Of a DNA stretch of 64,000 nt, positions 16,701 through 17,542 are shown in pieces. The translations under genes and the position numbers were made by a program. The notes beneath the pieces are model-generated. The model was not told the DNA's origin. It did not search any database and saw only the letters and a list, made by a program, of their open reading frames with translations. Source of the stretch: Lepidurus packardi (taxonomy: Eukaryota; Arthropoda; Branchiopoda; Notostraca; Triopsidae); contig JAKZAN010000005.1 of the NCBI GenBank assembly GCA_023053545.1, forward strand, positions 7,998,001 through 8,062,000, in the 5' to 3' direction. Each line of letters starts with the position of its first letter. Within the stretch, counting starts at the first letter, position 1.

Positions 16701-17429
16701 ATGGCGTTTTGTATGAAGCAAAACGCTGAGGAGCATTACCGTGATCATTACGAAACGGGTAAGCTAATTTAACTTAAAATAATAATGGCTTTTATGCAAC
16801 CTGAGCATATAAACAAAACGTATATCAGAGTTTATCATTATAAGGTATGTTATCAATGTCTAATCTAAAGTTTTGTATGTATAATTCTCCGGGAGCTTTC
16901 GCCACCTGCTGCAAATTTAATTATATTATTGCGGTGGGATTTTAAATATATATTATTATTATTGTATTATCAAGGGACGTAGCAACCAAATGTTACAAGG
17001 CCAATGAAGCAAATGACAAAACAACAGAGAGCATTATCAAACTGCTATTAAATTCTTGTATATGGCAGGAGTCTACGCGTGTGCATCTTGTGGCTACGAG
17101 TTATTCTCCAGCCGCTCGAAGTTCGAACATCATTCCGAATGGCCAGCTTTTTCTAATACAGTTCATGAAGATTCGCTAACTAAAGTTCCCGAAGAAGGAA
17201 GACCAGGCGCGTTAAGGGTGTCGTGTGGAAAATGCGACTATAGTCTGGGTCACGAGTTTCAGAATGAAGGGCCTGATGCTGAGAAGAAGCTGTCCCGCTT
17301 TTGAATATACAGCAACAAGCTGAAATTCATCCCTCATCCAGGTATATTTGCATTTCAGCTTGGCATTAATTTTTTACCGCTATTCGTCCTGCAGATGGGG
17401 CCAAATCTCTCAACGCAACTAACGGTTAG
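16701..17429 (+). CDS. MSRB1: Methionine-R-sulfoxide reductase B1, selenoprotein with in-frame UGA
   Basis: Reduces methionine-R-sulfoxide in proteins, in cytosol and nucleus. Exons 16701-16758, 17069-17341 and 17395-17429 give 121 residues if the TGA at 17302-17304 is read as selenocysteine; vertebrate MSRB1 has 116. Zinc-site motifs are CASCGYELF and [12 protein letters not shown]; the substrate block is SEWPAF. The catalytic position follows SRF: [14 protein letters not shown], exactly where vertebrate MSRB1 has Sec. The frame continues through [12 protein letters not shown], splices across a 53-bp intron and stops at TAG. A SECIS-like hairpin follows at 17491. If UGA were a stop, the enzyme would lack its catalytic residue, so truncation is unlikely. 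Confidence 0.88.
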
Positions 17430-17486
17430 TGATATAAACGGTGCCAAGTGAAGATTTAGCGTTCAGCTTGCTCATTTTATGTGAAA

Positions 17487-17542
17487 TTCCATGAAACGAT
17501 GGTGCTAAAGTTCGAAGGAACCGTACCAAAGTGGAAGTATCC
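17487..17542 (+). promoter_or_regulatory. Candidate SECIS element (form II)
   Basis: Lies 62 nt after the MSRB1 stop. Quartet strand AUGA at 17491-17494 faces GGAA at 17533-17536, allowing tandem G-A pairs. Helix II pairs UGGUGC (17500-17505) with GUACCA (17523-17528), with weaker pairs below. An AAA bulge (17507-17509) follows, then a short helix GUUC / GAAC (17510-17513 with 17518-17521) around a GAAG loop. This order is that of form II SECIS elements. Helix I is weak by eye. Confidence 0.65.

Follow-up and report, generated by a model that had tools for sequence, protein, structure and literature searches.

Selenocysteine (Sec) is decoded by an established pathway in which SBP2 acts on a SECIS element together with eEFSec and Sec-tRNA. 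This SBP2/SECIS/eEFSec pathway is described in an earlier account (PMC2746813). The closest described relatives of the locus presented here are vertebrate MSRB1 (SelR, SelX; PDB 2kv1 and 3mao), the eukaryotic form-2 SECIS element, and the selenoproteomes of non-insect arthropods and other invertebrates. For the last of these, the relevant part of one report describes many selenoproteins and the full machinery in the centipede Strigamia, counting 20 selenoproteins and placing a large loss in insects (PMC4244043). The sequence-only reading had treated the loss of this trait in most insects as a clue to lineage, and we take it as a hint. Passages on crustaceans report 16 selenoproteins and intron-bearing tRNA-Sec genes in Daphnia pulex (PMC5330540) and mention, as unpublished data, many selenoprotein genes in shrimp, the latter text also calling MsrB specific to animals (PMC2375036). 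In a table of invertebrate selenoproteomes, the SelR row is filled in all six columns (PMC3473315).

The window (the whole stretch of 64,000 nucleotides of Lepidurus packardi DNA that was analyzed) contains an MSRB1 gene, the features of which are listed in Table 1 with those of the Sec pathway. The exons were inspected in the raw sequence and then spliced by script, giving three coding exons within 16,701-17,429, two introns that both run GT..AG, and a product of 121 residues with U at position 98 and Cys at positions 4, 24, 27, 72, and 75. The product matched Pfam SelR at 74.6 bits against a cut-off of 24.9. When it was compared to PDB, where 21 distinct sequences were matched and ranked, the top two chains were MSRB1 (136 and 129 bits), followed by MSRB3 (58 bits) and MSRB2 (42 bits). 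As predicted from these matches, the protein is MSRB1 and not MSRB2 or MSRB3.

Table 1. Features of the MSRB1 locus (window positions) and of the Sec pathway (contig, with positions where given)
Feature	Position	Strand	Remarks
MSRB1 exon 1	16,701-16,758	+	starts with ATG, carries Cys4; donor GTAAGC
MSRB1 exon 2	17,069-17,341	+	four CxxC cysteines and UGA; acceptor GGCAG, donor GTATAT; PF01641 match
In-frame TGA	17,302-17,304	+	residue 98; inferred Sec; aligns with MSRB1 catalytic column
MSRB1 intron 2, 53 nt	17,342-17,394	+	GTATAT..TGCAG; starts 37 nt 3' of UGA
MSRB1 exon 3, coding part	17,395-17,429	+	TAG stop at 17,427-17,429
Possible helix I, 5' arm GAAATT	17,483-17,488	+	anchored search; arms assigned by hand; absent from energy fold
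SECIS-form core	17,491-17,536	+	ATGA / AAA / GGAA; helix II with 2x2 mismatch; 4-bp mini-helix
Possible helix I, 3' arm ATTTTC	17,547-17,552	+	anchored search; arms assigned by hand; absent from energy fold
AATAAA, possible poly(A) signal	17,729-17,734	+	downstream of SECIS candidate
tRNA-Sec, anticodon TCA	C4:8069987-8070072		77.8 bits; no intron
SPS2	C1		own TGA in LKGUGCKVPQ
SepSecS	C5		large contig
eEFSec	C2		121 bits; best PDB match 5izk
SBP2	C5		two L7Ae exons, 22.7 and 19.5 bits (cut-off 22.1)
PSTK-like ORF	C3		TIGR03575 124 bits, under curated cut-off of 382; PF08433 62.4 bits, over 22

The in-frame TGA is preceded by LSRF and followed by [10 protein letters not shown]. It had been proposed earlier that this TGA, directly after SRF, occupies the Sec position of vertebrate MSRB1, and the PDB alignment placed the UGA on the catalytic column, where 2kv1 has Cys and 3mao has Ser. 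We take both of these residues to be engineered replacements of Sec. All five cysteines of the product aligned with Cys in 2kv1; of these, the two CxxC pairs presumably form the zinc site, and Cys4 is presumably the likely resolving residue. The gene shares with vertebrate MSRB1 the family, the Sec/UGA column, Cys4, and both CxxC pairs of 2kv1, whereas it differs in its short C-terminal tail and is made up here of three coding exons. The proposal that the frame stays conserved beyond the UGA also held, as the residues encoded 3' of it still aligned with MSRB1 in the PDB comparison, and the splice junction was found where it had been placed, 37 nt after the UGA, with exon 2 ending at 17,341. 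One possible way to splice out the UGA was considered, a GT..AG stretch of 21 nt at 17,292-17,312, the removal of which would delete the catalytic site and not supply a Cys. Twenty-one nucleotides are too short for a spliceosomal intron, and splicing around the UGA was rejected on both grounds. A Cys copy of MSRB1 nearby was also sought, and the PF01641 search listed a single match on contig C4, which was MSRB1 itself.

The sequence-only reading had called for the Sec machinery to be looked for in the same genome. The assembly searched comprised 108,557,554 bases in 344 contigs, with the machinery scored on the large contigs, and tRNA-Sec, eEFSec, SBP2, SepSecS, and SPS2 were all found there. 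When the two SBP2 exons were joined, their best PDB match was SECIS-binding protein 2 (7zjw_B, 69 bits; next match, 31 bits), and from its profile matches the ORF on C3 is a probable PSTK. The tRNA-Sec gene differs from those described for Daphnia pulex in the part of that report that covers them in having no intron (PMC5330540). It lies on the same contig as MSRB1, 54.7 kb from the UGA and approximately 8 kb beyond the end of the window, which may be a coincidence. A third place, C5:2298761, barely reached the tRNA-Sec cut-off and was called tRNA-Ser by ARAGORN; the window itself has a tRNA-Ser gene with anticodon AGA at 50,199-50,280 on the minus strand. Further matches to MSRB, SepSecS, tRNA-Sec, GPx (with TGA), and Rdx (with TGA) were obtained on the small contigs C42, C44, C73, C122, C229, C231, C241, and C325, including a tRNA-Sec on C325, a SepSecS on C229, and a GPx on C241; Rfam SECIS matches closely follow those on C241 and C122. 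These small-contig genes are probably DNA of another, Sec-using organism, and the copies were left out when the Sec genes of the animal were counted.

On the large contigs, a TGA at the Sec site was found in five genes in addition to MSRB1, namely two GPx genes (on C3 and C5), SPS2, TrxR, and SELENOF, while a Cys occupied this site in two MSRB paralogues on C2 and in a GPx adjoining SPS2. The latter two genes are convergent and approximately 1 kb apart at C1:5089113-5091205, with SPS2 on the minus strand, the Cys-form GPx on the plus strand, and the SPS2 SECIS between them. The TrxR gene, which ends in GCUG, came from a pattern search that gave 56 places compared to 47 with the reversed pattern; the context was inspected for 7 of the 56, and one of these was TrxR. 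COX1-like fragments, many with in-frame TGA, were scattered over C1, C2, C4, C5, and C6 (41 COX1 matches) and resemble mitochondrial DNA that has been copied into the nucleus. The presence of in-frame TGA in several genes might suggest a reassignment of TGA in this genome, or its general readthrough. However, TGA stood at known Sec sites in all six large-contig genes that were read, a dedicated tRNA-Sec exists, and the TGA-rich COX1-like fragments have the look of mitochondrial copies in the nucleus, and we attach a negligible probability to this explanation.

We examined the region 3' of the UGA for a SECIS element, for which a form-II-like hairpin had been proposed. The hairpin core is arranged as ATGA at 17,491-17,494, 12 nt, AAA at 17,507-17,509, a GTTC/GAAC mini-helix, and GGAA at 17,533-17,536, and its ATGA lies 133 nt from the UGA in the spliced message. 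The order NTGA, 12 nt, AA, 25 nt, GA conforms to the published spacing rule of 10 to 13 and 15 to 39 nt, as given in a passage of PMC2375036. The AUGA/GA quartet, the AAA bulge, and the apical mini-helix of the earlier proposal were thus all present; its regularity was overstated, as helix II has two mismatches and helix I is weak. Compared to eukaryotic form-2 SECIS elements, the 17,491 element has the AAA bulge, the mini-helix, and the motif spacing in common but departs from them in its 2x2 helix II mismatch, its short A/T-rich helix I, and its lack of an Rfam SECIS_1 match. Folded alone, the core reached -11.4 kcal/mol with the 2x2 mismatch included, a value that 5 of 200 shuffles equaled or bettered, and, the two mismatches aside, it shared its register and loop architecture with the SELENOF element. 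An anchored search gave helix I six pairs, with one mismatch allowed and loops of 2 and 10 nt, versus no pairs in an energy fold with 22-nt flanks, in which six other elements had 9 to 13 pairs. This energy fold favored another structure, with a different lower stem, by 6.9 kcal/mol, versus 0 to 3.8 kcal/mol in the six others; the mean probability of the core pairs was 0.82 despite this alternative.

A scan with known SECIS features, the rule for which was written after the candidate had been seen, returned the 17,491 site as the single site within 500 nt of the UGA. With an ATGA rule, both strands of the 64-kb window held eight sites at -4 kcal/mol or better, 17,491 being the top one, and it was equaled in 4 of 3,000 dinucleotide shuffles of 17,427-17,770. 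It ranked first among the 41 structural sites of the window under the published sequence rule. When any NTGA was admitted and helix I was scored, it came third of 32 window sites and first within 17,305-18,400, and was equaled by 7 of 5,000 shuffles of the 3' region and by 1 of 364 native pieces of the window. With every method tried, it was the top hairpin of the MSRB1 3' region. The scan also recovered the expected site 3' of four of the five other selenoprotein genes (GPx on C3, GPx on C5, SPS2, and SELENOF) and none after TrxR; the SPS2 site was the best of three scan sites, and the SELENOF locus had come from the Rfam SECIS model and is hence not an independent case. Downstream of the Cys MSRB genes on C2, on the gene strand, no site was found for one and a site at -4.5 kcal/mol for the other. 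Across 325,355 bases, with both strands and overlaps counted, nine distinct sites reached the energy of 17,491. Six of these, including 17,491, belong to selenoprotein genes or to loci chosen with Rfam, and three (in L004, L053, and L065) have no known reason, the upstream sequence having been inspected for two. A good SECIS-like site at -12.3 kcal/mol lies beside a tRNA-Ser cluster near C4:4,325,000 on the minus strand (L004, L005, and L007), and a quick look upstream of it recognized no selenoprotein gene.

The check with a SECIS model that the earlier reading had proposed, and whose failure it had named as refuting, came out negative, with no Rfam SECIS_1 match in the window at the cut-off and none at E 10 on the 551 bases of 17,300-17,850. 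Genome-wide, nothing in the assembly exceeded the cut-off, and 17,491 was not listed. Given four better-formed elements, the same model found two, both under the cut-off, and missed those of L041 and L019 at E 1; it also gave no match at the TrxR locus. Rfam SECIS_1 is insensitive here. A first model of our own, built from four other elements, scored 17,491 at 9.7 bits, the best in the 3' region, but did not list it within E 10 over the window. A second model was built from seven elements with MSRB1 held out, three of which (C73, C122, and C241) are on small contigs and may be another organism's; the GPx element of C5, which the first model missed at E 0.03, was left out and was not recovered by the second model either. 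With this second model, 17,491 was the top site of the window (15.9 bits, E 0.44) and of the 3' region (E 0.0024), and an unrelated site in L017 scored higher, at 18.3 bits; the 17,491 score is close to noise. In element alignments A1 to A4 and A6, arms were misplaced or no model was built from them.

By composite score, 17,491 was the weakest of its set, at -16.8 compared to -17.9 to -23.5 for five other elements. This weakness would be in keeping with a loss of recoding in MSRB1, in which case the UGA would be a true stop and the product truncated and inactive. No damage is seen, however, in the frame past the UGA, in the splice sites, or in the four CxxC cysteines, and the Sec pathway is present in the assembly; such a loss is very improbable. 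A different possibility is that MSRB1 is a selenoprotein whose functional SECIS is another element, the 17,491 hairpin being incidental; the weak helix I, the alternative energy fold, and the absence of an Rfam match at this site point that way. Against it, the motifs, the spacing, and the distance from the UGA are all correct at 17,491, and a relaxed scan of 17,305-18,400 passed only one other site, with a helix II of -4.6 kcal/mol, and we consider an incidental hairpin improbable. The TGA is also one base away from TGT or TGC, and a Cys codon might have been misread in sequencing or assembly. With a SECIS-form hairpin at the expected place, and with the Sec form of MSRB1 known in many animals, as indicated by the published table (PMC3473315), an error of this kind is hardly credible. 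Our reading is that the 17,491 hairpin is the SECIS of MSRB1, weak but real.

Taken together, the identity of MSRB1, the UGA at its catalytic column, the Sec pathway genes, and the SECIS-form hairpin downstream, each of them observed, support the reading of this gene as one encoding a selenoprotein. It is very probably a real selenoprotein gene of the ordinary animal type, and it is highly likely, judging from the sequence, that its UGA, codon 98, is translated as Sec via the form-2-like SECIS at 17,491-17,536. Following the established pathway, SBP2 would bind the form-2-like SECIS borne by the 3' untranslated region of the MSRB1 mRNA, and the SBP2-bound element would bring eEFSec and Sec-tRNA(Sec) to the ribosome. 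The UGA would then be decoded as selenocysteine, which would serve as the catalytic residue. By the same reasoning from known systems, the enzyme would reduce methionine-R-sulfoxide through Sec98, with Cys4 as the likely resolving residue.

A SECIS-like hairpin lies approximately 170 nt 3' of the TrxR UGA, at C4:7271794-7271840 (L060, 1795-1841) on the minus strand; it has AUGA and GGAA, but UUCA in place of the AAA found in the others. A search of the approximately 800 nt downstream of TrxR for NTGA..AA/CC..GA triples at the published spacing gave none. The apical bases in vertebrates are AA or, rarely, CC, according to a passage in PMC3316567. With helix II broken and helix I marginal in the MSRB1 element, and no apical AA or CC in the best SECIS-like candidate 3' of TrxR, SECIS requirements may be relaxed in this animal, with an SBP2/eEFSec pair that may accept looser elements than those of vertebrates; we regard this as a long shot.

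Sec-form MSRB1 (SelR) in invertebrates is already published, and the present gene is a further example of a well-known phenomenon. MSRB1 alone raises no new question, and loose SECIS elements might raise one. The gene adds one more Sec-form MSRB1 from a compact animal genome that also has the Sec pathway, and reading the raw sequence in this way can reveal selenoprotein genes of the sort often truncated at the UGA by standard annotation.
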